48,548 nucleotides of DNA. It comes from a virus. The notes beneath the pieces are model-generated. The model did not search any database. It was not told where the DNA came from and worked only from the letters and a program-made list of their open reading frames with translations. Below, one piece after another: positions 3,249 through 40,772 of the stretch. Location of the stretch: positions 1 through 48,548 of IMG/VR virus record IMGVR_UViG_3300008116_006782. The stretch is one strand, 5' to 3'. How positions within the stretch are numbered: position 1 is the stretch's first letter; each line of letters opens with the position of its first letter. The position numbers and the translations under genes were made by a program.

Positions 3249-3827
3249 ATGACTTATAAAGAAAAAAGAGTTGCAGAATTATTAGAAGCACCAAGAATGA
3301 TTTATTCTACTTCTAACAACCGAATCAATAGACTTAATGGTTTAAAAATGTTAATTGATGATTTTATTACTGATAATACCATGATGATTGAAGTTGGTTC
3401 ATTTGCTGGTGTTAGTAGTGAAATGTTTGCTTTACATTGTAAACACATTATTTGTGTTGATGAATGGAATCCATATTGGGAAATTCAAACACCTGAATTA
3501 ATTCAAGGTGCCGAAGCTCAATTTGATAAATTATTGTTAAAATATCTTAATATTACTAAACATAAATCATCAAGTGTAGAAGCAGCTACTAAATTCTCAG
3601 ACAATTCACTTGATTTTGTTTATATTGACGCCGCTCATGATTATGAAAATGTAAAAAAAGATATTACTGCTTGGTTGCCTAAAGTAAAAATAGGTGGTGT
3701 AATAGCAGGACATGATTATCATTATGATCCTAATATTCAAGTATACGAAGTAGTAAATGAATTTTTTGCTTCTGATTATAAAATATCAACATATCCTGAT
3801 TCAAGTTGGGCTATAGTGAAAAAATAA
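3249..3827 (+). CDS. Class I SAM-dependent methyltransferase
   Basis: 192 residues. SAM-binding motif I is MIEVGSFAGVSS (46-57), the post-strand acidic residue is in CVDEW (69-73), FVYIDAAHDY (123-132) matches motif IV of small-molecule methyltransferases, and GGVIAGHDY (149-157) closes the core. This is the class with the D-x-x-H-D-Y signature often seen next to sugar-modifying genes. It opens a run of five co-directional genes (3249-6791) with very short gaps or overlaps, all plausible sugar or glycan modification enzymes. The substrate is unknown. Confidence 0.8.
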   Translation: MTYKEKRVAELLEAPRMIYSTSNNRINRLNGLKMLIDDFITDNTMMIEVGSFAGVSSEMFALHCKHIICVDEWNPYWEIQTPELIQGAEAQFDKLLLKYLNITKHKSSSVEAATKFSDNSLDFVYIDAAHDYENVKKDITAWLPKVKIGGVIAGHDYHYDPNIQVYEVVNEFFASDYKISTYPDSSWAIVKK

Positions 3828-3830
3828 ATT

Positions 3831-4496
3831 ATGTTATCATTTAAACAAATAGGAGAAAAATACCAAACTGATAAAGTACTCTATCACGGGTACTATCATT
3901 TTTATCCTCGTTTTCTTGAGCCTTTAAGAAACGAAACATTTAATATGTTGGAAATTGGTTTAGGTAGTTTTCAAGACAACACAGGTAACTCTCCTAAATT
4001 ATGGAAAGAATATTTTCCTTATTCTAATATATTTGTAATGGATATAGATCATGAATACACAGATGAATATGGAAGAGTAATTAAAGGAGACCAATCAAGT
4101 TTAAATGATTTAAATAATGTAAAAAACATTATCCAATCAGCTAAATTTATTATTGATGATGGTAGCCATCACCCAGAACACCAAATATTAAGTTTTGAAT
4201 TTTTATTTGAAAATCTTTTGGAATTAGGTGGTGTATATATTATAGAAGATATTGAGTGCTCATACTGGCACCCACATGAAGACATTTATGGTTATACAAC
4301 AGGTTATCTAAATATCATTGATTATTTTACTAAATACCAACATGAAATAAACAGTGAATTTAATGATGTAAGTAATCGTTTGAAAATATCAACAATAACT
4401 TACGGACAAAACTGTATTATAATAACTAAACAAACCCAAGAGGAAATAGATTTTTATAATAGAGAATATCGTTTTAGATGGAAATTAAGAAAGTAG
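3831..4496 (+). CDS. Class I SAM-dependent methyltransferase, sugar-O-methyltransferase-like
   Basis: 221 residues. Motif I is MLEIGLGS (39-46), DIDHEY (71-76) follows the second strand, and IIDDGSHH (107-114) with GGVYIIEDIE (133-142) is the signature seen in bacterial sugar and macrolide-sugar O-methyltransferases. It starts 3 nt after the preceding methyltransferase and overlaps the next gene by 19 nt, so it belongs to the same operon. A role in modifying a host or virion glycan is inferred from context. Confidence 0.78.
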   Translation: MLSFKQIGEKYQTDKVLYHGYYHFYPRFLEPLRNETFNMLEIGLGSFQDNTGNSPKLWKEYFPYSNIFVMDIDHEYTDEYGRVIKGDQSSLNDLNNVKNIIQSAKFIIDDGSHHPEHQILSFEFLFENLLELGGVYIIEDIECSYWHPHEDIYGYTTGYLNIIDYFTKYQHEINSEFNDVSNRLKISTITYGQNCIIITKQTQEEIDFYNREYRFRWKLRK

Positions 4497-5413
4497 CATT
4501 AATAAGTTCGTTTTGTAATGACCAAGAAAAAATTGATGTATTAATTAAAAACATCAATATTGTAAAAGAACTAGGACTTGATGTAGTTGTATTAAGCCCA
4601 TTTTATTTACCTAAAGAAATAGTAGATAAATGTGATTATTTCTTTGTTACTAAAGATAATCCCGTATATGAATGGCCTAAAAAAGGATGGAATTTTTGGC
4701 GTGAAATACCTTATAAAGGTAAAATATTAAAAATATCTAAAACCGTATCCGATTATGGTTGGGCAGGAGTTCATCAAGTAAAACAATTAAGTGAACTTGC
4801 TCTTAATTTAGACTATACCCACTACTATCACCTTATATACGATTTAAAAATAACTGATAGTGTTAAACTACAATTTGATCAAGCACCACCAGATAAAGTA
4901 GTATTCCCATCTAAACGTGGAGATACTATTTGGAAGGTAGGTCTTCATTTTATGATATTTAGTAAGGAAAATTTAAGAAAATTTACTAATTTTATCACTG
5001 AAGAAAGTTATAACACTATTGATAAACTAGATAGTGCCTTTGATTGGTTAGCTAAAATTGTAGATTTGATGCCTATTAAGATAGGTAATTTCCCTGTTGA
5101 AGATGAAATTTATATTTTTGAAAATGAAGATATATATAATTACTCACCTGTAAATGGAGTAAAGTTTTTTATTGAAAAAAATGATGAAACACAAGCAAAT
5201 ATAAAGTTATATTTTTATGAAATTGAAAATACTAAAGTTGAACTTTATGTTTATCAAGACCACACACATGTATCAGTTAGGGAGGGTGATATAATTGACT
5301 TAAATTTCAATAAGTTTAATTTTAAAGAAGTTGTACTTGTTATTAATAATAAAACATACAACATCACAAATACAATTAGAAATGTTAAACATAATACCTT
5401 AGACATTTTATGA
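4478..5413 (+). CDS. Putative glycosyltransferase-like protein
   Basis: 311 residues. The N-terminus (KKVALISSFCND, then DVVVLSPFYLP) looks like an alternating alpha/beta nucleotide-sugar fold. Aromatic-rich blocks (GWNFWREIPYKG, 85-115) and YYHLIYDLKI (near 130) are compatible with a GT-A fold whose aspartate sits in the IYDLK stretch. The last 100 residues look like a beta-rich add-on domain. I do not recognise a specific family. The call rests mainly on fold pattern and on its position between two methyltransferases and an acetyltransferase. Confidence 0.5.
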   Translation: MEIKKVALISSFCNDQEKIDVLIKNINIVKELGLDVVVLSPFYLPKEIVDKCDYFFVTKDNPVYEWPKKGWNFWREIPYKGKILKISKTVSDYGWAGVHQVKQLSELALNLDYTHYYHLIYDLKITDSVKLQFDQAPPDKVVFPSKRGDTIWKVGLHFMIFSKENLRKFTNFITEESYNTIDKLDSAFDWLAKIVDLMPIKIGNFPVEDEIYIFENEDIYNYSPVNGVKFFIEKNDETQANIKLYFYEIENTKVELYVYQDHTHVSVREGDIIDLNFNKFNFKEVVLVINNKTYNITNTIRNVKHNTLDIL

Positions 5414-5955
5414 TAGAAAATATTCATTTATGGCACGCTGATAGAGGTACTTATTTTGATAGAAACGTTAATATAATTTCCTGGAGCGATCAGTATATAG
5501 TTAAATTAGGTAAATACAACTCTATAGGTAGAGATTGTAATTTTTTTCTTCACGCTAACCATAGAGCAGATTGGATTACAACTACATCTCAACTTTGGGG
5601 TCCTGTTACTCCTGAAATAGCACAGATGCATATGAATATGGGTCATCCAACTTGTAAAGGAAACATTAATGTTGGAAATGATGTTTGGATAGGAGCTAAA
5701 TCAACTATAATGTCAGGTGTTACTATTGGTGATGGAGCTATTATTGGTTCTACTTCTACTATAGCTAAAGACGTTCCACCATATGCTATTGTTGTTGGTA
5801 ATCCAGGTAAAGTAGTAAAATATAGATTTACACAAGCCCAAATTGATGGCTTATTACAAATACAATGGTGGAATTGGGATGAATCAAAAATAAAGACTGA
5901 AGCAATGGAATTATGGTCTCCAAATATTGATGATTTTATATATAAACATTTATGA
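5410..5955 (+). CDS. Hexapeptide-repeat acetyltransferase (CatB/XAT-like)
   Basis: 181 residues with a left-handed beta-helix. Hexapeptide-like repeats run from about 84 to 132 (INVGNDVWIG, GVTIGDGAIIG, DVPPYAIVVGNPGKVV). The candidate catalytic histidine is in ANHRAD (His51), in the position where xenobiotic/sugar acetyltransferases of the CatB-VatD type carry theirs. The C-terminal WWNWDESKI resembles that family too. It transfers an acyl group from a CoA thioester. The sugar target is inferred from the operon. It overlaps both neighbours by 4 nt. Confidence 0.85.
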   Translation: MIENIHLWHADRGTYFDRNVNIISWSDQYIVKLGKYNSIGRDCNFFLHANHRADWITTTSQLWGPVTPEIAQMHMNMGHPTCKGNINVGNDVWIGAKSTIMSGVTIGDGAIIGSTSTIAKDVPPYAIVVGNPGKVVKYRFTQAQIDGLLQIQWWNWDESKIKTEAMELWSPNIDDFIYKHL

Positions 5956-6791
5956 TAAAAGTAGATTTTAGTAATGGGGTTAGAATTGAAACAGGTAAAT
6001 TAGAATATGCTTTTCAACCTGATCAGCTTCCTCTTGAAATACAAATACAAAGAGCAGTATCTAAAGAGATAATTTGGACTACCAATATGGGTAGTGGAAT
6101 GTGGGCTACATATCCTGAAAGTGAAATTAATAATGTAATTGTTAATGATGCTAAAGGTAAGTTTGTATATCAACGCAATTGGGAACCAATTACGGACGGA
6201 TCTATATTTTATCAAGCACTCATTCTATATTGTAAATCAGTAGCTAATAAAGGTAAAAAACCTAAAGGGCTAGTTATTGGAACACACGATGGTGAATTTG
6301 GTGAATGGGTACCTATTGCCCTTAAAGTATTATCAGATATGGTGTTGGTTGAGGGTAGTAAAAACCAATATGATAAACTTTGGAAAAATTATGTTGGTAG
6401 ACCAGGCATAACAGTATTATTTGATTTAATAACCCCAGATGGTAGTGAGGTTGAGTTTTGGGAAGGGGGGAAAGGTTATACTAATACAATTGTTAAGCGT
6501 GTTATTGATTATTGGGAAAGAGAACCCATAGCTGCTACTAAACGCACATCAACAAGTATTAACCAATTAATCGAAACACAATGTGGTGGGGAAATAGATT
6601 GGTTACATTTAGATGTTGAAGGTTTAGATGCAAAAATTCTTATGGCTATTAATACTAAGTACCTACCAGGATTTATAATATTCGAAGATTTTAATTTACC
6701 ACAGGAAGAAAAAGATACTATATATAATTACCTAAAAGAAAAAGGATATAAAACACATTCGGAAGCAGGTATTTGTATGGCCGCGCTATAA
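5952..6791 (+). CDS. FkbM-type SAM-dependent methyltransferase
   Basis: 279 residues. The SAM site is probably LVIGTHDGEFG (107-117), with the acidic residue in VLVEGS (131-136). WLHLDVEGLDAKIL (217-230) is the hallmark I(D)xEGxE-like block of FkbM methyltransferases, which O-methylate sugars and other small molecules. The N-terminal 90 residues are an additional domain I do not recognise. It is the last gene of the cassette and its stop is followed by a 185-nt control region. Confidence 0.78.
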   Translation: MIKVDFSNGVRIETGKLEYAFQPDQLPLEIQIQRAVSKEIIWTTNMGSGMWATYPESEINNVIVNDAKGKFVYQRNWEPITDGSIFYQALILYCKSVANKGKKPKGLVIGTHDGEFGEWVPIALKVLSDMVLVEGSKNQYDKLWKNYVGRPGITVLFDLITPDGSEVEFWEGGKGYTNTIVKRVIDYWEREPIAATKRTSTSINQLIETQCGGEIDWLHLDVEGLDAKILMAINTKYLPGFIIFEDFNLPQEEKDTIYNYLKEKGYKTHSEAGICMAAL

Positions 6792-6802
6792 TTTCTACAA
6801 AA

Positions 6803-6858
6803 GTTAGTACAATATAACTAACGTAGTTAGTCAAATTCCTACACATTTTAGTCAAATT
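6803..6858 (+). promoter_or_regulatory. Operator-like repeats
   Basis: TTAGTCAAATT occurs at 6827-6837 and again at 6848-6858, a 21-nt period (two helical turns). GTTAGT (6803-6808) and ACTAAC (6817-6822) form an inverted pair, with a further GTTAGT at 6826-6831. Such phased repeats upstream of a promoter are typical of a dimeric regulator's sites. The regulator is unknown. Confidence 0.45.
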
Positions 6859-6887
6859 TATAGGGCGTTAATTACTAACGCTCTATA
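6859..6887 (+). promoter_or_regulatory. Hairpin of a repeated control module, copy 2
   Basis: TATAGGGCGTTA (6859-6870) pairs with TAACGCTCTATA (6876-6887) across a 5-nt loop: 12 bp with one wobble. The same arms, in a less perfect form, occur at 1304-1332, also followed by AAAAG and then by a promoter. No T-tract follows, so a terminator is unlikely. Confidence 0.55.
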
Positions 6888-6915
6888 AAAGCTTTGCAAG
6901 ATTTATGCAGAATTG

Positions 6916-6950
6916 TTTGGTTACCTAAAAAATTCAGCGTAATTTTACGG
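6916..6950 (+). promoter_or_regulatory. Bacteroidota-type promoter P3
   Basis: TTTGGTTACC with its TTG at 6917, and TAATTTTACGG at 6940, 23 nt apart. It shares the downstream ACGG with P1 and P4. It drives the 73-residue gene at 6976. Confidence 0.7.
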
Positions 6951-6975
6951 TTGCCAATAAGGCATTAAAAATAAA

Positions 6976-7197
6976 ATGAAAGTTATGAGTAACAATTTAG
7001 TACAAGAAGCGTTTGAATTATTTGTTGAAACAATGCCATTAGAAACAATGCCATTAAATGATGAAACGTCGTTTGTTTGGCACGATTTATATAGCAAAGA
7101 ATGTAAGATATTTGATTTGTTAAGGCGTATGACGGATGAAGAAAAAGACGCATATCGTAAAGCGGTTCAACACGTAAGTCTTTACCAAACAAAGTAA
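6976..7197 (+). CDS. Small hypothetical protein, 73 aa
   Basis: Not recognised. The protein is acidic and helical. An in-frame 15-bp tandem duplication (7027-7056) gives two copies of ETMPL. The ATG at 6976 is preceded by an A-rich leader (ATTAAAAATAAA) typical of Bacteroidota. The second ATG (6985) is an alternative start. It has its own promoter on each side, as expected of a small early gene. Confidence 0.6.
   Translation: MKVMSNNLVQEAFELFVETMPLETMPLNDETSFVWHDLYSKECKIFDLLRRMTDEEKDAYRKAVQHVSLYQTK
7027..7056 (+). repeat. 15-bp perfect tandem duplication inside the 73-aa gene
   Basis: GAAACAATGCCATTA occurs twice head to tail (7027-7041 and 7042-7056). It keeps the reading frame and adds five residues. 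Confidence 0.9.
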
Positions 7198-7198
7198 G

Positions 7199-7233
7199 TT
7201 TGGTTGCCTAAAAAACAGGTCGTATCTTTACGG
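7199..7233 (+). promoter_or_regulatory. Bacteroidota-type promoter P4
   Basis: TTTGGTTGCC with its TTG at 7200, and TATCTTTACGG at 7223, 23 nt apart. The layout and the CCTAAAAAA stretch after the -33 element are nearly identical to P3. It drives the gene at 7270. Confidence 0.7.
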
Positions 7234-7269
7234 GAATTAAGTAATTAATTAAAAATAAAAATAAAGGTT

Positions 7270-8100
7270 ATGTCAAACATTTTGAAAGAAGCTCTACAGA
7301 GCAAGTTGGAACAATTGAAATCTGAAGAAAAGCAACGTCACGCAAATCTTCAAGATTATCAAAAACGAGTATTTAATGATTGGAAAGCCCAATACATTGA
7401 TAAAGTTCCATTCATTAGCCAAAAAGCAAAAGATACGTTGGTTATGGAACCAACTTCAGGTGGTATTGAATTCAAATGTGATTCTGAACGTTGGGGTAGT
7501 AGTATTACTCTTAGTCGCGATGCAAACTGGCGTAGTGAGGAAAAACGTCCTGAATTGAGTTGGTTTAGTTCACGTGCTGATAAAGAAGATAAAAACAATT
7601 ACCTTAGTATTCTTCAAATATTAGGTTTGTTATCCAGTTATATGCAAAGCGACTTGAATGCATTTAATGAATTGTTAGAGGTATTTGATTTCTATCAGAA
7701 AACTTCTTCAGAAATTATGGGTAACATTAGTCACCAAATTTGGGAAGTTGAAAGTGCAATTCGTAACGCTGAGTATGATGAGCGTGAACAAGAAAAAATC
7801 AAGATGCTTAACAAAGGTAAAATGGAATTACCTGAGGATGTTGATTATTTACCTAGCTTTTATGCAAGCGCAGATAAATGGTCTAACAAAAGATTTAGCC
7901 ATATGACTTGGAAAGAAAATAAAGGTGGTAAAACCTATAAAGTTTCAGGTTATGTGATAAATAAAAATTGGTCTGATGGTAAAAAATGTCATACGTGGTT
8001 TGTTGATCGTATGAAAAAAGACCGTTTGTTAGATGCGATCAGTGAAGGAATGAAGAGACTGAAAGAATATAACGAAGATAAAGCCACTGTTAACGCCTAA
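7270..8100 (+). CDS. Hypothetical protein, 276 aa
   Basis: Not recognised. The N-terminal 60 residues are a charged coiled-coil-like helix. The middle (about 70-170) contains WGSSITLSRDANW and a helical segment. The C-terminal part (205-260) is rich in Trp, Lys and Gly (ADKWSNKRF, GYVINKNWSDGKKCHTWF), suggesting a small nucleic-acid- or ligand-binding beta domain. No membrane segment or signal peptide is seen. It is driven by promoter P4 and sits among small early genes, which fits a host-takeover or DNA-metabolism role, but no function can be assigned. Confidence 0.6.
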   Translation: MSNILKEALQSKLEQLKSEEKQRHANLQDYQKRVFNDWKAQYIDKVPFISQKAKDTLVMEPTSGGIEFKCDSERWGSSITLSRDANWRSEEKRPELSWFSSRADKEDKNNYLSILQILGLLSSYMQSDLNAFNELLEVFDFYQKTSSEIMGNISHQIWEVESAIRNAEYDEREQEKIKMLNKGKMELPEDVDYLPSFYASADKWSNKRFSHMTWKENKGGKTYKVSGYVINKNWSDGKKCHTWFVDRMKKDRLLDAISEGMKRLKEYNEDKATVNA

Positions 8101-8129
8101 TCTAATTACTAAACCATTAAATTAAAGAA

Positions 8130-8360
8130 ATGAAACTCGAATCAACACTAACCAAAATTGCAGAACAAGTCTTTAGCGCAACAAGCGTCGAACAAGCAAA
8201 AACAATTGCCCTCGATTTCTTAAGTGAAAGTAAAATCAATGAAGCGGATCGTAAAAAGATGATTGCCGAAATTGAAACAAAGAAAGATTTAGTTAAACTG
8301 CAAATATATATAGCGAACGCATTACTTAAATTTGAGGGATTAAGCCTTAACGATAAGTAA
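8130..8360 (+). CDS. Small hypothetical protein, 76 aa
   Basis: Not recognised. It is almost entirely helical and charged, without cysteines. The A/T-rich leader (AAATTAAAGAA) and ATG are typical of this genome. Its N-terminus MKLESTLTKIAE ends in I-A-E, as the T4 capsid-targeting peptide does, but its location among early genes makes that similarity weak. Confidence 0.6.
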   Translation: MKLESTLTKIAEQVFSATSVEQAKTIALDFLSESKINEADRKKMIAEIETKKDLVKLQIYIANALLKFEGLSLNDK

Positions 8361-8384
8361 GTGTCCAACCAAAAAATAAACAAC

Positions 8385-8657
8385 ATGAAAAAATTATTTA
8401 TAATTGCCCTAGTATTATTCAGTTCAGTAGTATTTAGCCAGCAATTACCTTCAAGAAACCCAGACAACCTTCCTTCACGTAATCCAAGAATGTTACATTC
8501 AAGAATGTATCAAATGAGACCTCAAGTAATTGAGCGTAAGGATGGTAAAGTAACTATTGTGGTTACAGAACAGCAATTCAGAATGATGCAACAAAGACAT
8601 CCTCGTCCTGGAATGCCTATGTGTAAAAAATGTTCTAAACATCACAAACATTCTTAG
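8385..8657 (+). CDS. Small secreted protein with signal peptide
   Basis: 90 residues from the ATG at 8385. This start is preferred over an in-frame GTG at 8361 because it opens directly with a signal peptide (MKKLFIIALVLFSSVVFS, then Q). The mature part has two LPSRNP repeats, many Arg/Met residues and a C-terminal CKKCSKHHKHS tail rich in Cys and His that could bind metal. A phage protein exported to the periplasm is unusual outside lysis genes. It is followed by a strong terminator and ends the early block. No family recognised. Confidence 0.65.
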   Translation: MKKLFIIALVLFSSVVFSQQLPSRNPDNLPSRNPRMLHSRMYQMRPQVIERKDGKVTIVVTEQQFRMMQQRHPRPGMPMCKKCSKHHKHS

Positions 8658-8687
8658 TTTTCATTCCTTTATTTTTAATTTGGCAAT

Positions 8688-8711
8688 GCCCCTCCTAGTG
8701 AGGGGTTTTTG
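8688..8711 (+). terminator. Intrinsic terminator
   Basis: CCCCTC (8689-8694) and GAGGGG (8700-8705) form a stem with a 5-nt loop, followed by TTTTT. It separates the early block from the next transcription unit, which begins with an ATATTTAT element a few bases on. Confidence 0.88.
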
Positions 8712-8718
8712 CTTTATA

Positions 8719-8728
8719 TATATTTATA
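8719..8728 (+). promoter_or_regulatory. Candidate late-promoter element (TATATTTATA)
   Basis: The 8-mer ATATTTAT (8720-8727) recurs in short gaps ahead of many genes in this window. Here it lies between a terminator and the GTG start at 8742, a position only a promoter or leader element would occupy. Confidence 0.5.
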
Positions 8729-8741
8729 TCAAATAATAGTT

Positions 8742-9008
8742 GTGGAAGAATTAAACGATGAATTTAAATCAGCAATAGCTAATATGATGGATAGTGCTGT
8801 TGAGTCATTGCTTGAAGTAATTCAGTTTGACGAAAAAATAGACCACTATTATACTAAAAACTTGTCTAAAGAACAAGCAGAGGAAATTGTTAGGTGGTTT
8901 AGTGATGAAGTAATTCCATTATATACTGAATTAGAAATGTTTGAAAAGGCAGCTCAAGCTAAAAAAATAAAGGATACAATAAAAAAATATAATGAAGATA
9001 TTCGTTGA
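8742..9008 (+). CDS. Small helical hypothetical protein, 88 aa
   Basis: Starts at GTG 8742. An upstream in-frame TTG (8709) would overlap the terminator and the ATATTTAT element and is unlikely. The protein is acidic and predicted all-helical (NDEFKSAIANMMDSAVES ... AAQAKKIKDTIKKYNEDI). No motif recognised. It overlaps the following methyltransferase gene by 17 nt, so translation is probably coupled. Confidence 0.65.
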   Translation: MEELNDEFKSAIANMMDSAVESLLEVIQFDEKIDHYYTKNLSKEQAEEIVRWFSDEVIPLYTELEMFEKAAQAKKIKDTIKKYNEDIR

Positions 9009-9582
9009 AATAGGTAGTTGTTACTTTGATACGTTACATTATTTGTTAGATGAAGGCTGGAAGGGTTTTATGATAGATCCTGTTGGGCATTATCTAGATA
9101 AAGTACCTAATCATCCTAATTTAACTAAAATAGAATCAGCTGTTGTTGCACATCAATTGTTTAAAACCCCATCTATTGGATTAACATATGTTACAGAACA
9201 ACATTATTCTAGTTTTGATGAGCAGGCAAAAAAAGATTTTCATGGAATGGGTAGTACACAACCATTTAGAACAAGTATATTAAGTGGTAAGATAGGAAAT
9301 TATAATAAAGGAGATATTGCTACTAAAGTAGTACCTGCTATATCATTAAATTGGTTTATAGAATATTATAATATCCCTAAAATTGATTTACTCAAGATAG
9401 ATACCGAAGGTGCCGACTTTGATATTCTAGCTTCTATAGATCTTTCTAAAATTGAAGTTTCTGAAATACAAATTGAACATAAACATTATGATGATATATT
9501 TTTAGGAAAGTATCTAGTAATGAATGGTTATAAATGGGAATTTAGTCCCACTGATTGGTCAACTATAATTGCAAAAAAATAA
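8992..9582 (+). CDS. FkbM-type SAM-dependent methyltransferase (second copy)
   Basis: 196 residues. The N-terminus FVEIGSCYFDTL (4-15) is a short SAM motif I and GFMIDPVG (25-32) the acidic strand. IDLLKIDTEGADFDIL (131-146) is the FkbM signature. It is shorter than the FkbM-like protein at 5952 and lacks its N-terminal extension, so the two are distant relatives rather than a recent duplication. Three nt separate it from an oxygenase-like gene. Methylation of a sugar or small molecule is inferred. Confidence 0.8.
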   Translation: MKIFVEIGSCYFDTLHYLLDEGWKGFMIDPVGHYLDKVPNHPNLTKIESAVVAHQLFKTPSIGLTYVTEQHYSSFDEQAKKDFHGMGSTQPFRTSILSGKIGNYNKGDIATKVVPAISLNWFIEYYNIPKIDLLKIDTEGADFDILASIDLSKIEVSEIQIEHKHYDDIFLGKYLVMNGYKWEFSPTDWSTIIAKK

Positions 9583-9585
9583 TTT

Positions 9586-10221
9586 ATGGTAAATGCATTT
9601 GTTGTAGATAATTTTCATCCTAGACCTTATGAATTAAGGGAATTTGCATTAAAACAAGATTTTAATGTTGATGGAAATTATCCTGGACGCCGTACACGTT
9701 CATTTTTAAAAGACTCAGATTATCCTACAGGATTAATTCCATTTCCTCCACCCCCAGATTATACTTCTACTATGCAACAAAAAATTGCTGATATAGTAAG
9801 ACCATTTGCTGGTGAAATAACTTGGTGGGGTGATGAAGAATATACAGGTGCTTTTCAATACACAACAGCTAAAGATAAAAGTTGGATTCATGTTGATCAT
9901 ATTACATCATGGGCTGCTGTTTTATATTTAACACCTAATGCCCCAATCACAGCAGGGACAGGTTTATTTAGACATAAATTAACAGGTTGGACTACAGAAC
10001 CTTATTTTGATAATGGTAATGTAAATGAAAATCTTAAAGATTTAATTTATGAAGATGCTCATGATATGACTAAATGGGAGATACATACAATGGTAGGTAA
10101 TGTGTTTAATCGTTTAGTATTATATAAAGCAAATCAGTGGCACCAATCACTTGATTATTTTGGAAAAGATATTCATGATGGAAGATTATTTATGACATTC
10201 TTTTTTAACACAGAGATATAA
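9586..10221 (+). CDS. Putative 2OG-Fe(II) oxygenase-like protein
   Basis: 211 residues. A facial triad can be read as H102-x-D104 (WIHVDH) with a distal His186 (NQWHQS), and Arg200 (DGRLFMTFFF) could bind 2-oxoglutarate. NRLVLYKANQWH before the distal His is typical of the family's barrel. Proteins of this type hydroxylate small molecules, protein side chains or bases. It directly follows the FkbM methyltransferase, suggesting a two-step modification (hydroxylation then methylation), which is inference. Confidence 0.65.
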   Translation: MVNAFVVDNFHPRPYELREFALKQDFNVDGNYPGRRTRSFLKDSDYPTGLIPFPPPPDYTSTMQQKIADIVRPFAGEITWWGDEEYTGAFQYTTAKDKSWIHVDHITSWAAVLYLTPNAPITAGTGLFRHKLTGWTTEPYFDNGNVNENLKDLIYEDAHDMTKWEIHTMVGNVFNRLVLYKANQWHQSLDYFGKDIHDGRLFMTFFFNTEI

Positions 10222-11569: not shown

Positions 11570-12139
11570 ATGTCATTTAGCGCAACCCAATGGAGAGATT
11601 TGTTAGCCGATTATTCTGGTTCTACTAATGGAACAAGATCTTGGGGAGAATTAGGACAAGGCCAGTTTCAAGGAAAATACTATATTCAAACAATAATAGC
11701 CGGAAATAATTTAATAGCAAGAGTTAGAGGATGTGGAGGAGGTATAGGTAAAACTGTTCAAAGTTTTTATTCAGTTAATTCACGAGCAGCCAATTATTTT
11801 ACAGCCTTTAATGGATATTATGGATTTTTTTCAAACTTTCAATATGCAAGCGGAACTTTATATTCAACTCCTGCTTATGTGTATATATTAGGAACTCTAC
11901 TGACTGGTCTTAGTAACTCGTATGTTTCTTATGGTTCATATTCACAATCAAAATTTTGGGGTTCGGCTGAAACACGATTTATAAATAGCAGTAATTATGT
12001 TGCTTTTTATAGTTATACTCCTTGGGGTAGTGGACCTTACAGTGCTGGAAGTAATATAGCTATAGGACATGGAAACAATGGATCACCAACTTCAGGTTAC
12101 CCTTATCAGAGACATTACAATTCTTCCACTCTTTGCTAA
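11570..12139 (+). CDS. Gly/Ser/Tyr-rich hypothetical protein, 189 aa
   Basis: Not recognised. The composition is dominated by Gly, Ser, Tyr and Asn, with many aromatic-glycine pairs (GYYGFFSNF, YVSYGSYSQS, YSYTPWGSGPYS). The last third is loop-like with HGNNGSP. This is typical of extended beta-structural virion proteins such as fibre or head-decoration components. No signal peptide is seen. A virion surface role is inferred from composition and from the candidate late element in front of it. Confidence 0.55.
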   Translation: MSFSATQWRDLLADYSGSTNGTRSWGELGQGQFQGKYYIQTIIAGNNLIARVRGCGGGIGKTVQSFYSVNSRAANYFTAFNGYYGFFSNFQYASGTLYSTPAYVYILGTLLTGLSNSYVSYGSYSQSKFWGSAETRFINSSNYVAFYSYTPWGSGPYSAGSNIAIGHGNNGSPTSGYPYQRHYNSSTLC

Positions 12140-12157: not shown

Positions 12158-12856
12158 ATGACTACATATCATATAGAAGAATTTAACCATAGTGGTAGTG
12201 AATTTCATGGGATTAATTATTACAAATATACTACAGGTATATCTCAAGGGTCTTATAATGACACTTCTATATTAATGTCACTTACTAAAACTACTAATAC
12301 AAACGGAACTCTTTATTATGATATTACTTGGTTAAATCAAGTATATAAAAATATGGGTGAATATAACCCTACTAGTAGTTTATATTATACTAACATATAC
12401 CAACCTCAAATTCAAAAATTAAGTAGAGTAGATTCATCTGATGGACTTACTTTTGAAACAGCATACAATACCATTTATAATTATATTTCCTCACAAATTA
12501 ATATCATTACAGGTAGTGAATCCCCTGTTTTGTATTATAATTTAACTCCTCCCCGCTACATGTCTGGTTCTCAACCTTATTGGTATTTAGCTACATCAAA
12601 AACAAGTGGTTCGGTTGTTCAAGTTAGTGATGACTCTTCAATCAATTGTAATTTTGTAAATATTAGTTTTATTATAGGAGATAATAATTTACCTGTTATA
12701 AATCCTATTAAAAAATATTTTAATTGGTTTTCAACTAAAAACTTCCCAATACAGGGAGATATAAATGAAATTATTACAGAATTACAAACAGCTGATCAAA
12801 ATTTAAGACCTCAAATATCGCCAAACGTAGATTTAAGTCCTATTTGGCCTATATAA
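12158..12856 (+). CDS. Hypothetical protein, 232 aa, probably structural
   Basis: Not recognised. It is rich in Tyr, Asn, Thr and Ser, without cysteine clusters or a membrane segment. It follows the Gly/Ser/Tyr-rich protein by 18 nt, shares its compositional bias and is probably co-transcribed with it. The C-terminus (VDLSPIWPI) is hydrophobic. It may be a virion protein, but nothing in the sequence proves this. Confidence 0.5.
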   Translation: MTTYHIEEFNHSGSEFHGINYYKYTTGISQGSYNDTSILMSLTKTTNTNGTLYYDITWLNQVYKNMGEYNPTSSLYYTNIYQPQIQKLSRVDSSDGLTFETAYNTIYNYISSQINIITGSESPVLYYNLTPPRYMSGSQPYWYLATSKTSGSVVQVSDDSSINCNFVNISFIIGDNNLPVINPIKKYFNWFSTKNFPIQGDINEIITELQTADQNLRPQISPNVDLSPIWPI

Positions 12857-30015: not shown

Positions 30016-30678
30016 ATGGGATATTTAAATTCAACTACAGTAACAGTAGATGCAATTCTAACAACAAAAGGTAGACAGTTATTAGCAGCAAATGATGGTT
30101 CATTTAGAATCACTCAATTTGCTTTATCTGATGATGAGATTGATTATACTTTATACAACCCTAATCACCCTTCGGGTTCTGCTTTCTATGGTGAAGCTAT
30201 TGAGGCGATGCCAATTATTGAAGCATTCCCTGATGAAACACAAATCATGAAGTATAAATTATTTACTGCTCCTCGTGGAACAGCTAAATTACCAGTAATC
30301 GATATTGGTTATGCTTCAATTACGTTAAAACAAGGTGCTACATTATCAATTACACCTCAGACACTTAACTATTTAGGTGCTGCTACTACATTCGAATCTT
30401 CTGGTTATACAGCCACTATAGGTGATGTTAGAACATTATCTCAATTTAATGGTGTAGGTATTAATACACCTGAAGTAGCTGCTTTAAATGTTTCTACAAC
30501 AGTAGGAACTATAGTAAGTAAAACAGTAATAGGTACTACAATCAATATGACTGGTACAACTGTAAATGCCTTATTTGGTTCCTCAGCAACTGCTCTTTAT
30601 ACTCAATTAATTATCACAGGTAGAGATTCAGGTGCTCGTTTAACAATTCCCGTAACAATTACAAAAGTAACACAATAA
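30016..30678 (+). CDS. Tail/baseplate structural protein, 220 aa
   Basis: Family not recognised by name. The N-terminus (GYLNSTTVTVDAILTTKGR, QLLAANDGSFRITQFALSD) is a pattern I associate with proteins in the baseplate/fibre region of other T4-like phages. The C-terminal half is Thr/Val-rich beta structure (GTTINMTGTTVNALFG, GARLTIPVTITKV). It has its own candidate late element and is followed 6 nt later by a related structural gene. It is probably a fibre-attachment protein. Confidence 0.6.
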   Translation: MGYLNSTTVTVDAILTTKGRQLLAANDGSFRITQFALSDDEIDYTLYNPNHPSGSAFYGEAIEAMPIIEAFPDETQIMKYKLFTAPRGTAKLPVIDIGYASITLKQGATLSITPQTLNYLGAATTFESSGYTATIGDVRTLSQFNGVGINTPEVAALNVSTTVGTIVSKTVIGTTINMTGTTVNALFGSSATALYTQLIITGRDSGARLTIPVTITKVTQ

Positions 30679-30684
30679 TAAAAT

Positions 30685-31791
30685 ATGAGCTACGTACAAT
30701 TTAATCCTGAAGATTTTGTAGTAAGTGCAGATTCGGTTACGACTACTTTGTGGTCGAATGCTACTCCTACATTAACTACATTTTTTACTTCATCAACAGG
30801 AGTAGGTGGAACCACTACTGGTTCTGCTAATTACTTAAATGTATATAATGTAGACCCTGCTGTATCAGCAAGTGCTGAAATTCAATTTTCAATTGCCTAT
30901 GGCCGTGTAGATAGTTCAGGTTCCGCTCCTTTTAATTTATTAGTTCCACAAAATACTCCTACAAGAGTAACTTACGGACAATATAGAACATTAGTTAATG
31001 GAGACGAAAATACAAATTTTAACTTTGGTTTAAACAATACAAGTTCAACAGATTTGTATGTACTTAACATTGAAAGAGCTCGTTATAAAGATCATTTATT
31101 CTTAGGTACATTTAACTTAAGATTATCTTGTTTAGGTGGTGGAGGTAATTTACCTACTCCTCATACAGGATCTATTGTATTAACAAATAATAGCAATAAC
31201 GTATCAACAGTTACTTACTGTGATGCAGGTAGAGTTTATGATATTGTAAGTGGTACAAATGGTACTGCTGTTACAACAGCATATTTCCCTGGCGTATCTG
31301 CTGGTTACACTCCTTCTGGTTCTTACGGTTGGTATTTACCTGATGTTGGTTTAATTTTATTAAATCCAAGAGCATTAGCATTACCATTCGTTTCAGGTGG
31401 TGTTAATATTCAACCATATTCATCTTCAGTTGCTACAACAAATAATAGTGATTTAACAGGACCTTCAGGTTCCGTTGCTAAATTATTCCAATCTATTTCT
31501 GGTTCACTAAATTCAGGTTCATTCCAAATTAATAGTGAAGAACAAATCAGTTCGGATTATGTGTTTGTAAGAGTAACAAACTCAGAATTTAACTACTCAA
31601 CTAATCCATCTATCATTAGTGGTAGTGGTGAATTTGTTTATCCTTCATTAGTAAATAATCCTCAAACATATCCAACAACAGTAGGATTATATAATGATAA
31701 TAACGAATTATTAGCAGTAGCTAAATTGTCAAAAGCCCTACCGAAGGACTTTACAAAAGAAATATATATTCGTGTTAAGTTAGACTTCTAA
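30685..31791 (+). CDS. Tail-fibre/structural protein, 368 aa
   Basis: Rich in Ser, Thr, Gly and Asn, with beta-strand patterns throughout, including short SGS-type spacers. The C-terminal ~85 residues (from YVFVRVTNSEFNYSTNPS to KEIYIRVKLDF) match the 101-residue protein at 34841 in spacing and key residues: NEFN/NSEFN, PSI, TTVG(L/I)YN, NELL(A/L)V(A/G)KLS. They are therefore one shared domain. It lies between two other fibre-like genes. A fibre or fibre-capping role is inferred. Confidence 0.6.
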   Translation: MSYVQFNPEDFVVSADSVTTTLWSNATPTLTTFFTSSTGVGGTTTGSANYLNVYNVDPAVSASAEIQFSIAYGRVDSSGSAPFNLLVPQNTPTRVTYGQYRTLVNGDENTNFNFGLNNTSSTDLYVLNIERARYKDHLFLGTFNLRLSCLGGGGNLPTPHTGSIVLTNNSNNVSTVTYCDAGRVYDIVSGTNGTAVTTAYFPGVSAGYTPSGSYGWYLPDVGLILLNPRALALPFVSGGVNIQPYSSSVATTNNSDLTGPSGSVAKLFQSISGSLNSGSFQINSEEQISSDYVFVRVTNSEFNYSTNPSIISGSGEFVYPSLVNNPQTYPTTVGLYNDNNELLAVAKLSKALPKDFTKEIYIRVKLDF

Positions 31792-31794
31792 TGA

Positions 31795-34700
31795 ATGAGT
31801 TTTGCATACAAAACATTAAAGGGATCCGATATTTCGATATCGCCGTATGTTGCCAATAAACAATATACTTTTCCGAGCAATAGTTTATCTAGCTCGGGAA
31901 TTATAGTTTATACTGGTGAATACGACCCTCAATATATTATAAGCGGAACAGTTTATAATGCTTTTGACCCTATTAATGATGTAAAAAATAATGGGTATTA
32001 TAGAAGACTAATTTTTGATTCAATTCAAAGACTATATTACCAAAACTACATCTCAGGATCACAATCAGGTTCGTTTTTCGTATCATCTTCTTATGAAAAC
32101 TACGATCAAACAACCTTGGCATCTGGTGCTTTTGATGCTACTGTAGTAAAAGTTTTAAATACTAATACTGCTTCTCTTATTCAACCTAAGATTAGAGTAA
32201 TTTCTATTCCTCAAGACATTTATGGAAATGGTGTTCAGCCTGGTACTTTTATAATTTCAAGTTCTACCTACTACATCAAAGATGATGGTCAGGGTAATTT
32301 ATGGGACTATATAACTTCAGGATCAATTTATAACCAGGATCCTTATAGTGGTTCTTGGTATGCTGGAACAAATGATACAAAAATATATGTTGGAAACATA
32401 GTTTATTCTCCTGGGTTTGCTATTATAGTAAATCCTGATTATTTATGTTTTTATCCTTCTGATCCTGTTGCTTTAAATGATAATTATACAATACTAAATG
32501 TTTCTGAAAGTAAAGTATTAGATATTTTAGCAAATGATTTTGATGATTGTAATGGTATTGATGACTCTACTGTAATGACTTATCCTTTAGCAGGATATAG
32601 TTTTCCATCATTTTCAATTGTAAGTGGGGATATTCATATTACTGACTGCGGTGCTAATAATTTACAAGTTACTCCTGGTGTATATAAAATGTTATACACA
32701 GTAAATAATGATAGAGGAGCAACAAGTAATTTAGCTACTTGTAGTTTAACTATATTATCAGGTGAATTTACTTCATCACTTGTTGCTTATACTTCAGGAT
32801 GTTGGGGTGATGTAGCAAGTCAATCAGTAACTTTTTCACTTGACTTAGGTATTCCTCCATATAGCTATTCTTTAGATAATTCAAATTGGACTGGATTTAG
32901 TGGATGTCCTGCTTTATACCAACCAATTGTAAGTTTATCAGTTCCTACTAATGATAATGTTAACGTTTATCTTAAAGATGTAGCAGGAACTATTATTTCT
33001 TATTCTCTTGATACTCAATTATTCCCTATACTTCCAAATTCAAGTCATTTAGATACTTGTTTAGACGCAAGTACAGGTTGGATATCTGCTAGTGCTGTTG
33101 GTGGAAATCCAACAAATGCTCTATCAGCAAGTATTCAATCTGGTTCTTACAACAGTGGATATTTTCCATTAGTTGGAGGTTCTTATGTATTTACAGGATT
33201 AAATAGTGGTAGTTATACTGTTACTTGGAAAGACAATAATAACTGTACTACTTCATCTACAGAAGTAATAACAGTTCCCCCTCCAATTAATATTTCTCTT
33301 CAATCAGTTGAAGCTGATTGTCCTGGAGGTACAGGTACTCCTAGTGGTGGTATTGCTGTTAGTGTAACTGGAGGATCTGGTTTATACAATTACAGATGGA
33401 CAGGAGACAGTGGTGCTTCTTTTATAAGTTATGTTGAAGACCCAGTAGGATTATCTGCTGGAAATTATGAATTATATGTAAGTGATAGTACAGGATGTAA
33501 TGATGCTACTTCAAGTGTTATAACAGTAGGATCTGTTACAGCTGTTGGATTTACAGGATTTACTATTGCTTCTTCTTCATGTTTTGGAAGTGGTGGCGGT
33601 GGTAGTATTACTGGAGGTTCTTTAACTGGAGGTTCTGGTAGTTTAAGTCCTGTGTTTACTGGTCCTAATGGATTTACTTCAAATAGTGTAAACATTATTA
33701 ATTTAAATACAGGTAGTTATACATTAACTGTTACTGATTCAGCTACAGGATGTTATTATACTTTTGGTCCTTATGCCATTAACCAACCTACCGAATTTAA
33801 ATCATCTTCATTTACTATTAATAGAGGAAATTTAGGTAATCCATATACTCCATATTTTGCTAGATTTGCTTTCCAAGGAGGTACTTTAGATACTAGTGGT
33901 GGTTATACTGCCTCTCTATATTTAAGTTCAAGCGCAGGATTAAGTCTACAATACGTTATAAGTGCCTCTTCAGTAGGTTCACAACAAATATGGTTAACAC
34001 AATCTTGTTTAACCGCATCTACTAACTGGGTATTAAGAGGAGTAGATGATAATGGATGTGTGGCAACTAACTACAGCCCAGGATACTACATTTCATTAGC
34101 CCCACAAGTAGTACAACAGGTTCCCGTTTGCTTTTCAGCAAATACATCTTCTAATGTTTGTGGTTGCGATCCAGCATCTGGTTCTTTTACTACATTTTAT
34201 TTATCATCTTCATATTCAACTTCATCTAACGATATTTTACAAGTTGCTGATTTAGGTGTTACTGGAGGAATTGATGGAAATGTTAATGCGTTAATATGGG
34301 CGAACTGCGCTCAATCAACTACAGCATCTGTAGGAACTTATTGGGATAATGGTAGCCAACAAGCCACTATTGGATTAGGAACAGGAGTAGGTGGATTTTT
34401 AAACAACTGGGACCCATGTCCTATTGCTCTTAGTAAGCGAATTACCACTTTTATTAATAATAATCCTGTTAAAGTATCATCTTGGACTGAACTTCAATAC
34501 CAATATGGAGTAGCAGTTACTAGTTCAAATTTTAGTTTAACTTGGACAGGAACAACAACAACCTCTTCACTTAAAAATATCCCAACTCCTCCAGGAGTAG
34601 GTTCATATACAGTAAGTGCTTCACTCGATCAAGCTTTAGACCCACAAGGAGATATTAGTGTAACTATATCTGTTACTAGTGGTTCCAGTACAGGATATGA

Positions 34701-34836
34701 ATCATCAGTATATTATTTATATGGACCAACAACTTTTGTAGGAGTTACAGAAGCAAGTTTTATATCTAATCCTTTATTCATAACAGGTAACTTAGACTAT
34801 ATAGTAAATATAGATTACAGTTCTGAATATTTATAA
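31795..34836 (+). CDS. Large tail fibre/adhesin with SprB-like repeats
   Basis: 1013 residues. The N-terminal ~220 residues are fibre-like, with the beta pattern and SGSxxGS spacers of the neighbours. Residues ~225-325 form an Ig/cadherin-like domain (SKVLDILANDFDDCNG). From ~415 to ~665 at least three repeats follow the form C...GG(S)G-x-Y-x-[FL]...GSYTxTVxDxxxC (e.g. GLNSGSYTVTWKDNNNC, GLSAGNYELYVSDSTGC, NLNTGSYTLTVTDSATGC). This is the SprB repeat of Bacteroidota gliding adhesins. Cysteines at each repeat end probably form disulphides. The C-terminus is unassigned. It is likely the receptor-binding fibre. Confidence 0.7.
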   Translation: MSFAYKTLKGSDISISPYVANKQYTFPSNSLSSSGIIVYTGEYDPQYIISGTVYNAFDPINDVKNNGYYRRLIFDSIQRLYYQNYISGSQSGSFFVSSSYENYDQTTLASGAFDATVVKVLNTNTASLIQPKIRVISIPQDIYGNGVQPGTFIISSSTYYIKDDGQGNLWDYITSGSIYNQDPYSGSWYAGTNDTKIYVGNIVYSPGFAIIVNPDYLCFYPSDPVALNDNYTILNVSESKVLDILANDFDDCNGIDDSTVMTYPLAGYSFPSFSIVSGDIHITDCGANNLQVTPGVYKMLYTVNNDRGATSNLATCSLTILSGEFTSSLVAYTSGCWGDVASQSVTFSLDLGIPPYSYSLDNSNWTGFSGCPALYQPIVSLSVPTNDNVNVYLKDVAGTIISYSLDTQLFPILPNSSHLDTCLDASTGWISASAVGGNPTNALSASIQSGSYNSGYFPLVGGSYVFTGLNSGSYTVTWKDNNNCTTSSTEVITVPPPINISLQSVEADCPGGTGTPSGGIAVSVTGGSGLYNYRWTGDSGASFISYVEDPVGLSAGNYELYVSDSTGCNDATSSVITVGSVTAVGFTGFTIASSSCFGSGGGGSITGGSLTGGSGSLSPVFTGPNGFTSNSVNIINLNTGSYTLTVTDSATGCYYTFGPYAINQPTEFKSSSFTINRGNLGNPYTPYFARFAFQGGTLDTSGGYTASLYLSSSAGLSLQYVISASSVGSQQIWLTQSCLTASTNWVLRGVDDNGCVATNYSPGYYISLAPQVVQQVPVCFSANTSSNVCGCDPASGSFTTFYLSSSYSTSSNDILQVADLGVTGGIDGNVNALIWANCAQSTTASVGTYWDNGSQQATIGLGTGVGGFLNNWDPCPIALSKRITTFINNNPVKVSSWTELQYQYGVAVTSSNFSLTWTGTTTTSSLKNIPTPPGVGSYTVSASLDQALDPQGDISVTISVTSGSSTGYESSVYYLYGPTTFVGVTEASFISNPLFITGNLDYIVNIDYSSEYL

Positions 34837-34840
34837 TTGA

Positions 34841-35146
34841 ATGCCAACATTAATCCATACAGGTTCCTTTGAAATGAGTTTTAAAAACACGTATATTCTT
34901 TATGAGAATGAAATACGTTGTACTATTACTGAAAATGAATTTAACCAATCCCAAAATCCCTCTATTTCTACAGGCAGTAATGGTGATTTATTGCCTTGGA
35001 CTACAGGTTCTAACTTTAGACCTTATGTAACTACTGTTGGTATTTATAATGAGGTAAATGAATTATTATTAGTAGGAAAATTGTCTCAACCTATCCCTGT
35101 TTCAAGCATGGTTGATACAACATTTGTTATAAAATACGATACTTAA
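34841..35146 (+). CDS. Small fibre-domain protein, 101 aa
   Basis: It consists almost wholly of the domain that ends the 368-residue protein at 30685, with the same order NEFNQSQNPSI, TTVGIYNEVNELLLVGKLS, and a final strand (TTFVIKYDT). It looks like a stand-alone copy of a cap or trimerisation domain placed after the adhesin-like fibre. The stop overlaps the GIY-YIG start by one base. Confidence 0.6.
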   Translation: MPTLIHTGSFEMSFKNTYILYENEIRCTITENEFNQSQNPSISTGSNGDLLPWTTGSNFRPYVTTVGIYNEVNELLLVGKLSQPIPVSSMVDTTFVIKYDT

Positions 35147-40031: not shown

Positions 40032-40772
40032 ATGAAATTAAAAGTATTAAAGGAAGCGCCAAAAGATTTAAAAGCAGTGTTGATTGCTGGTCCATCTAAC
40101 GTGGGTAAGTCAACATTCGTTAAATCTGTTATTCCTACCGAATACCAAAAATATGTGTTAAATCCTGATAAATTCTATGAACCCGAATTAGCCAAAATTG
40201 GTGGTGGTTCAATGAATATGAAGGACTTTTCCCCTGAGCAATTATCAGCAGCAGCAAAAGCACAAGCAGTAGCTGTAAAACAATATAGATCTGAATTAGA
40301 AAAAGCAATTGGTACAAAACCAGTTATTTTAGATATTACAGGTGGTAGCTTTAAAAAGGTAAAGGAAACAAAGGAAAAACTAGAAAAACAAGGTTATGAT
40401 GTAATGATGGTTTTATTATATGCTTCACCATATACTACTTTATCTCGCAATATGAGTAGAGACAGATCACTGGATCCAGGTATTGTAATTAGAAACTGGG
40501 AAGATGTAATTAAAAATGTTGATTTATATTCACAACTATTTGATGCTGATCATTTTGCTTTAGTAGATAATGATCCTCAAGGTGCTAATAAAAGCTTTAA
40601 CCTAGAAGATGTAGAATCATTATTTGAAAAATCTAAAATCTGGAAAGACATACCAGATGAGGATAGGAAAAAAATTGAGGCACGTATTCAAACACTTATT
40701 GACAAAACTGAAGATGCTAACTTTGTGGCATTTGATGAATTAGCAACTAAATTAAAAGGATTTCTTAAGTAA
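40032..40772 (+). CDS. Zeta-toxin/polynucleotide-kinase-like P-loop kinase with capsid-targeting-like N-terminus
   Basis: 246 residues. Walker A GPSNVGKST is at 20-28, followed by the helix and a KPVILDITGG strand (about 95-104). VMMVLLYASPYTTLSRNMSRD (around 120-140) has the arginine pair of the zeta-type lid. The C-terminal 60 residues are helical. The N-terminus MKLKVLKE, then A, has the L-x-E form of a T4 capsid-targeting peptide. Kinases of this class phosphorylate nucleotide sugars, nucleotides or polynucleotide ends. No antitoxin is nearby. It overlaps the next gene by one base. Confidence 0.75.
   Translation: MKLKVLKEAPKDLKAVLIAGPSNVGKSTFVKSVIPTEYQKYVLNPDKFYEPELAKIGGGSMNMKDFSPEQLSAAAKAQAVAVKQYRSELEKAIGTKPVILDITGGSFKKVKETKEKLEKQGYDVMMVLLYASPYTTLSRNMSRDRSLDPGIVIRNWEDVIKNVDLYSQLFDADHFALVDNDPQGANKSFNLEDVESLFEKSKIWKDIPDEDRKKIEARIQTLIDKTEDANFVAFDELATKLKGFLK

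Follow-up and report, generated by a model that had tools for sequence, protein, structure and literature searches.

A predicted glycan-tailoring cassette of an Immutovirus-like myovirus and its candidate virion-protein targets

Which molecule does a phage modify with a run of five putative sugar-modifying genes? The question is raised by positions 3249-6791 of a 48.5-kb linear viral fragment in IMG/VR (record IMGVR_UViG_3300008116_006782; 48,548 nucleotides), referred to here as the window, meaning the entire stretch analysed. Five collinear open reading frames (ORFs), all starting with ATG, occupy this interval on the plus strand in the order MT1-MT2-GTx-HEX-FKB1. The tight succession described in an earlier sequence-only reading is reproduced by the exact ORFs, with intergenic spacings of +3, -19, -4, and -4 bp. 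That reading had proposed that the genes build or decorate a sugar and had named three possible targets: host surface polysaccharide, a virion glycoprotein, or phage DNA. We conclude with moderate confidence that these genes form the tailoring end of a cytoplasmic glycan pathway with which the phage would decorate its own virion proteins, the likeliest being tail-fibre or other surface proteins.

The most specific assignment was that of MT2. A Pfam search yielded no match for this protein. Among PDB sequences, the matches were to two sugar O-methyltransferases, MycE (3SSM, E=1.5e-18) and TylE (8IA9, E=1.3e-16). Residues D110, H113, E139, and D140 of MT2 were invariant in 20/20 homologues and aligned with D275, H278, E303, and D304 of MycE. 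Specifically, the catalytic histidine of MycE (H278) and its two metal-binding aspartates (D275 and D304) are retained as H113, D110, and D140, the roles of the MycE residues being those given in PMC9275233 and PMC10117803. MT2 lacks the full two-domain architecture (about 399 aa): it comprises 221 aa, and in the MycE chain (419 aa) the alignment spans residues 186-331 alone. Based on this single-domain alignment, we describe MT2 as an enzyme predicted to work like MycE/TylE, transferring methyl groups to sugar hydroxyls, and not as a full-length member of that family. Eighteen MT2 relatives were found in IMG/VR. MT1 matched PF13578 in Pfam (E=1.2e-16), carries a D-A-x-H motif, and has a ratio of nonsynonymous to synonymous substitution rates (dN/dS) of 0.19-0.20 against near relatives. 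The two class I methyltransferases of the sequence-only reading are thus both recovered, MT1 by its Pfam match and MT2 by its similarity to MycE and TylE. MT1 also matched a PHROG labelled DNA methyltransferase, over the C-terminal part of that PHROG only; this label was rejected, as MT1 contains no [DNS]PP[YFW] motif.

GTx matched no sequence family in Pfam or in further libraries including NCBIfam, and its nature was evaluated by structure-based family assignment. Foldseek matches of the AlphaFold model (pLDDT 89) were mostly glycosyltransferases (best VIA-align Z 13.4, root-mean-square deviation 3.0, 176 residues), and the model identifies GTx as a predicted GT-A-fold glycosyltransferase, in agreement with the glycosyltransferase-like protein first proposed. 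The closest viral structural model is annotated as an Aah/TibC glycosyltransferase (E=5e-14). In the DxD region, D122 was the sole invariant acidic residue at the expected strand end (YDLKI); D92 and D209 were invariant elsewhere.

FKB1 belongs to the FkbM family by its PF05050 match (26.3 bits, E=9.5e-6; gathering cut-off, 22.7), and its model (pLDDT 95) is that of a COMT-like class I methyltransferase (Z 14.6) with an additional N-terminal beta domain. The alignments behind the structure predictions for GTx and FKB1 were shallow (13 and 19 sequences), and model confidence was high. The sequence profiles of the two proteins matched zero PDB entries. Comparison with a TibC-type domain was below significance for both the C-terminal domain of GTx and the N-terminal domain of FKB1 (hhalign P = 0.019-0.027, probability about 2%, for the latter). 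IMG/VR contained 39 relatives of GTx, as found by profile, and 33 of FKB1. Relatives of GTx, of FKB1, and of a 1013-aa fibre gene of the window were absent among 50,697 phage records, and short-motif scans of 84,980 genomes of bacteria and archaea, limited in sensitivity, found no confirmed member of GTx or FKB1. Within the sensitivity of these scans, the two families look virus-restricted, and they are unnamed in the libraries searched.

The hexapeptide acetyltransferase and the FkbM methyltransferase named in the earlier reading were each confirmed by a Pfam match, that of HEX being to PF00132 (E=3e-10). HEX shares its fold family with the CatB/Vat acetyltransferases, matching 6MFK (E=8e-32) and 8J40 (2e-30) among PDB sequences, and contains HRADW at residue 51. 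An antibiotic-resistance function was rejected on the NCBIfam scores: 120.5 bits for CatB (cut-off, 350) and 119.5 bits for Vat (cut-off, 300).

The cassette is maintained as a unit. One near relative, contig L002, keeps all five genes at 76-93% amino acid identity with dN/dS of 0.10-0.20, and a diverged contig, L022, repeats the order MT2-GTx-HEX-FKB1 at 70, 48, 69, and 47% identity, respectively. Because of this retention at low dN/dS and the recurrence of the order, the cassette is real and not a chance arrangement, and every gene is under purifying selection. A second near relative, L003, has orthologues of MT1, HEX, and FKB1 (87-94% protein identity, dN/dS 0.11-0.19), lacks MT2, and encodes a GTx that is 49-50% identical to that of the window and closer to the GTx of a distant contig, L016 (58%). 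L003 thus differs from the window by replacement of the GTx allele and deletion of MT2, with the neighbouring genes unaltered and the flanks at ~90% identity, so the product of the pathway would vary between close relatives. Matches to sigma-70-type promoters in the region were fewer than in shuffled sequence and were uninformative.

The link to protein glycosylation comes from related phage records, most of which are fragments. The order GTx-HEX-FKB1 recurs in many phage contigs, of which several derive from large T4-like phages, Gp23 being present in four; HEX is the best-conserved gene of the cassette (68-94% identity). This three-gene core ends larger clusters with DegT-like, PglD-like, NTP-transferase, GT4, DUF6625, and rhamnosyl-O-methyltransferase/CmcI genes. 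Aah/TibC proteins (NCBIfam TIGR04414, autotransporter O-heptosyltransferase) are encoded in 20 of the 29 related records, 19 of them scoring above the curated 200 bits. In bacteria, Aah and TibC, of the BAHT family, heptosylate many serines of adhesins in the cytoplasm before export (PMC7142665); no report of Aah/TibC in phages was found in the literature searched. In most GTx-HEX-FKB1 clusters, the Aah/TibC domain lies within a GT4+TibC gene that faces the cluster.

The same families also occur fused. In contig L060, a 1497-aa polypeptide comprises GTx (37% identity), GT4, Aah/TibC (293 bits), a GT-like part, and MT2 (46%). Similarly, a 1227-aa polypeptide of the isolated Microcystis phage Mel-JY01 comprises GT4, a GT-like part, MT2 (46%), and Aah/TibC (317 bits). 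Other fusions join GTx to FKB1 (599 aa) and a GT-like part to MT2, both in L062; PglD, Hexapep, and GT2 to GTx (L014/L048); and a methyltransferase to GTx (L013/L044). In L126, L127, and L133, genes for TibC, DegT, PglD, HEX, MT2, and GTx stand in a single cluster with the order GT4/TibC-DegT-PglD-GT-HEX-MT2-(MT1)-GTx-(FKB1); FKB1 is present in L126 and L133, and the L127 cluster includes a homologue of MT1 with 61% identity. Together with the catalytic residues and the GT-A model, these fusions and co-locations with glycan enzymes support well the proposal that the cassette builds or decorates a sugar. The DegT-like protein of many clusters is a shortened one of 214 aa (L009, 1423-2067, and homologues that are 70-90% identical); it covers a quarter of the aminotransferase profile and is possibly non-catalytic.

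By its core genes, the closest isolates to the window phage are Flavobacterium phage immuto together with Mel-JY01. Positions 13257-37315, a block of baseplate, fibre, primase, and exonuclease genes, are collinear with immuto (baseplate wedge, 48% identity; 220-aa tail ORF, 73%; exonuclease, 55%; primase, 50%), and the wedge is 48% identical to that of Mel-JY01 as well. Between its DUF932 gene and phosphohydrolase gene, immuto carries different ORFs, none of which matched the cassette, and neither FkbM nor Aah/TibC was found in its whole genome. The cassette is therefore assigned, from these gene comparisons, as an accessory island of an Immutovirus-like myovirus. The host is probably a Flavobacterium-like bacterium, given the link to immuto; a Bacteroidota-type TonB-dependent receptor gene with a signal peptide in the window agrees with this host.

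Candidate acceptors were also most evident in relatives. Many encode proteins with Thr/Ser repeats or otherwise rich in these residues (S/T-rich) next to the core, often directly downstream. These include a mucin-like 1792-aa protein with 39% Thr and TPTNTPTQ-like repeats (L053, 12383-17761), a 1193-aa protein with 21% Thr downstream of the core (L039), and, adjoining FKB1, a mucin-like protein of 1394 aa, 38% of them Ser and 27% Gly (L054). Among 55 distinct loci, an S/T-rich ORF was present in 17 of 27 bearing TibC and in 7 of the 28 lacking it (Fisher p=0.007, uncorrected for contig relatedness or phylogeny). Two large phages, of 295 and 317 kb, have such ORFs beside the cluster but elsewhere too. 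In the window, the tail-fibre/spike region is collinear with immuto gp107-gp105, which neighbour the annotated fibre/spike genes gp104-gp101 of that phage, and the most S/T-rich stretch lies within the 1013-aa fibre-region protein (31795-34836). Two S/G/Y-rich ORFs change fastest, with 46 and 32% amino acid identity to L003 as compared to 83-94% for most genes. Both the fibre region and these ORFs are putative acceptors.

Based on the abovementioned observations, we propose the following pathway. An Aah/TibC-type protein O-heptosyltransferase, encoded elsewhere in the genome, would probably begin the glycan, or another initiator would take its place. GTx would transfer a sugar from a nucleotide-sugar donor onto the growing protein-bound glycan alongside other transferases. 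MT2 would O-methylate a ring hydroxyl in a metal-dependent reaction resembling that of MycE, further O-methyl groups would come from MT1 and FKB1, and HEX would O-acetylate the sugar to give a capped glycan. Virion assembly would follow glycosylation, so export would be unneeded. A cytoplasmic pathway fits because no transmembrane-like segment was detected in the cassette proteins (maximum 19-aa mean of 1.45 versus 2.25-2.27 for the window's own membrane-like controls) and because searches of 20 related records, themselves fragments, yielded neither a Polysacc_synt flippase (PF01943) nor a Bac_transf initiating phosphoglycosyltransferase (PF02397), controls being positive. The swap of GTx and loss of MT2 among close relatives would alter the final glycan, as expected of a surface epitope under selection.

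Several observations weigh against a virion-protein target, besides the lack of correction for relatedness in the S/T-rich comparison. No TibC was found in the window or in its nearest relatives L002, L003, and L005, all fragments, and these same four contain no mucin-like ORF. The TibC clusters of L120, L126, L127, and L133 have no S/T-rich neighbour. In the window, the cassette lies ~24 kb from the fibre genes. The absence of FkbM and Aah/TibC from immuto makes the trait an accessory one. The window encodes no nucleotide-sugar pathway, and sugar donors must therefore be supplied by the host. Nor did the related phages yield an ADP-heptose pathway of their own: gmhA was absent, and the rfaE-domain-like cytidylyltransferases seen in 3 of 29 records were weak matches, all below cut-off, so heptose donors would likewise come from the host. 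Finally, the case for virion glycosylation is genomic throughout: the target of the window cassette is deduced from its relatives, and acceptor, sugars, order of steps, and biological benefit are likewise predicted.

The first alternative, which we regard as unlikely, is that the host lipopolysaccharide (LPS)/O-antigen or capsule is modified during infection by O-methylation, O-acetylation, and one added sugar, barring the adsorption of rival phages. The pelagimyophage authors so interpreted similar genes, namely the glycosyltransferases of a host-recognition region (PMC7029224), and this also counts against a virion target. HEX is kin to the polysaccharide O-acetyltransferases WbbJ and WcaF, and undecaprenyl-linked precursors at the inner leaflet would be accessible to soluble enzymes. 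However, the 20 related records contain neither flippase nor initiating transferase, the membrane glucosyltransferases and acyltransferases typical of Gtr/Oac seroconversion have no counterpart in the cassette, whose proteins are devoid of hydrophobic segments, and in relatives a protein O-heptosyltransferase is joined to members of these families in single polypeptides. Of the three targets named by the sequence-only reading, the virion glycoprotein is accordingly the best supported, through the Aah/TibC fusions and co-location, the mucin-like neighbours in relatives, the soluble enzymes, and the lack of a flippase or initiating transferase; the host surface is less supported and DNA is unlikely.

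Decoration of a small diffusible or cell-bound metabolite, such as a glycolipid or an antibiotic-like compound, in place of a polymer or protein appears very improbable. The nearest solved kin of MT2 are macrolide sugar methyltransferases and those of HEX are antibiotic acetyltransferases, but HEX scores far under the CatB and Vat cut-offs, no aglycone biosynthesis genes lie nearby, and the cluster context of the relatives is glycan and protein glycosylation. Still less credible is hypermodification of phage DNA bases by glycosylation, methylation, or acetylation to evade restriction. DNA is among the known substrates of phage glycosyltransferases, and the PHROG label of MT1 pointed in this direction. 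Nevertheless, MT1 is a Methyltransf_24 protein lacking the DNA-methyltransferase motif and covering just a C-terminal part of that PHROG, no DNA glucosyltransferase-like family was found, and the partners of the cassette families are protein-glycosylation enzymes instead. Just 2 of the 20 related records have thymidylate-synthase-type genes, which are absent from a 295-kb record, and MycE-type, FkbM, and XAT enzymes are not known to act on DNA. Passive carriage of functionless remnant genes, suggested by the accessory location and by immuto lacking these genes, is next to negligible given the intact ORFs, the overlaps typical of translational coupling, the dN/dS of 0.1-0.2 in every gene, and the catalytic residues invariant across distant relatives.

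The preferred reading, decoration of the phage's own virion proteins, may extend beyond the window. We tentatively suggest, with less confidence than for the cassette itself, that large tailed phages of a widespread group carry mucin-like O-glycosylated virion fibres, with TibC-type initiation on Ser/Thr-repeat fibre proteins followed by a modular extension and an O-methyl/O-acetyl capping that varies between close relatives, of which the window genes would be the tailoring end. If so, the cassette provides a genetic handle on a little-known trait, glycosylated phage fibres, and links to phages the protein O-heptosyltransferases known from bacterial adhesins. Such fibres could shield virions, tune adsorption, or evade surface defences, with the glycan varied via a one-gene swap. 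The question is directly testable in the isolated phage Mel-JY01.

The features discussed are compiled in the table. The five-gene extent of the sequence-only reading probably needs amendment, as the island appears to take in two further genes 2.2 kb downstream, FKB2 and, paired with it, that of a DUF6445 protein, which are conserved in the same near relatives (L002, L003, and L005 for FKB2). FKB2 scored 49.5 bits against PF05050 (cut-off, 22.7); the DUF6445 protein matched PF20043 (E=3.5e-12) and phrog_1644, with HVD at 102 and WHQS at 185. No DUF6445 match was seen in the loci of the larger phages.

Table. Coordinates of cassette genes, probable accessory genes, and putative acceptors in the window
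Feature	Assignment	Position	Strand	Basis
MT1	Class I (Methyltransf_24) O-methyltransferase, 192 aa	3249..3827	+	PF13578 match
MT2	Predicted MycE/TylE-type metal-dependent sugar O-methyltransferase, catalytic domain only, 221 aa	3831..4496	+	3SSM, 8IA9 matches
GTx	Predicted GT-A-fold glycosyltransferase, extra C-terminal beta domain, 311 aa	4478..5413	+	AlphaFold model
HEX	Left-handed beta-helix O-acetyltransferase, XAT (CatB/Vat) type, 181 aa	5410..5955	+	PF00132, PDB sequence matches
FKB1	FkbM-family methyltransferase, extra N-terminal beta domain, 279 aa	5952..6791	+	PF05050, model
FKB2	Second FkbM-family methyltransferase, probable accessory of same island, 196 aa	8992..9582	+	PF05050
DUF6445 protein	HxD...H motif, possible 2OG-Fe(II)-type oxygenase, 211 aa	9586..10221	+	PF20043; role inferred
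S/G/Y-rich ORFs (two)	Putative virion-surface proteins, possible acceptors	11570-12139, 12158-12856	+	Hypervariability
Tail-fibre/spike region	Candidate acceptor	30016..35146 (ORFs 30016, 30685, 31795, 34841)	+	Collinear with immuto gp107-gp105

Other features of the window were recorded. The TonB-dependent receptor gene (37440-39956) is intact and stands amid phage genes; its 838-aa product has a signal peptide, a CarbopepD_reg_2 domain, and a Plug domain. A Plug domain was found in just 3 of 29 related records, and two human-gut phage contigs encode full-length homologues of the receptor (38-39% identity). It could replace or mask a host receptor, or feed uptake. In L057, a 1088-aa outer-membrane beta-barrel/Plug protein (6386-9652) immediately precedes the GTx gene; a TonB-receptor-like gene and GTx thus co-occur in at least two phages, that of the window and L057. 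Nine tRNA genes are clustered at 47-921 on the minus strand, with a G+C content of 0.45 as compared to ~0.32 elsewhere. Two neighbouring ORFs with a 4-bp overlap at 40772-42174 resemble HAD phosphatases by appearance (DMDGxxxD starts).

Compared with known systems, the cassette differs from the gtr/oac O-antigen seroconversion cassettes in that none of its proteins is a membrane flippase, glucosyltransferase, or acyltransferase, and from the Wzx/Wzy polysaccharide pathway in the absence of PF01943 and PF02397 from the 20 fragmentary related records. The catalytic domain of MT2 shares its predicted fold, metal ligands, and catalytic histidine with MycE/TylE, and lacks the N-terminal domain of MycE. 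The likeness to the BAHT systems (TIGR04414; PMC7142665) lies in the relatives of the cassette, which share a polypeptide or a cluster with proteins passing the TIGR04414 cut-off. Unlike in those systems, the window itself has no member, the phage domain is fused to GT4 and other enzymes and stands near fibre-like genes instead of autotransporters, and heptose transfer is a prediction.

The pelagimyophage host-recognition cluster resembles the present loci in that glycan genes of T4-like marine phages occupy hypervariable regions close to the tail fibres. Its genes are mainly GT8 and are interpreted as O-chain modification (PMC7029224), with no mention of TibC or of the MycE/XAT/FkbM trio in the excerpted text. 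Mimivirus R132 resembles MT2: it is a single-domain, 221-aa MycE-like enzyme in which the D, H, and D residues are likewise conserved, proposed in PMC10117803 to methylate viosamine on virion fibrils. The viosamine cluster likewise encodes an aminotransferase, an acetyltransferase, and glycosyltransferases serving virion fibrils. Mimivirus differs in being a giant eukaryotic virus whose sugar is chemically known, and an Aah/TibC initiator is unmentioned in the excerpted text of PMC10117803.

One close precedent is in mycobacteriophages Che8, Corndog, and Myrna, in which virion glycosylation by phage enzymes is established (Freeman et al. 2023, reported in PMC12363180). As proposed here, the phage supplies glycosyltransferases that modify its own virion proteins within the host cytoplasm; those systems belong to actinobacterial phages and act on capsid and tail-tube proteins. 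MT2-like methyltransferases adjoin a glycosyltransferase in Mycobacterium prophages. By contrast, the relatives of the window are myoviruses with an Aah/TibC-type initiator, the GTx-HEX-FKB1 core, and mucin-like neighbours, as known here from their genes, and the window phage probably infects Bacteroidota. Whereas phage virion glycosylation as such is already known, this combination in tailed phages, not found in the literature searched, appears to be new.

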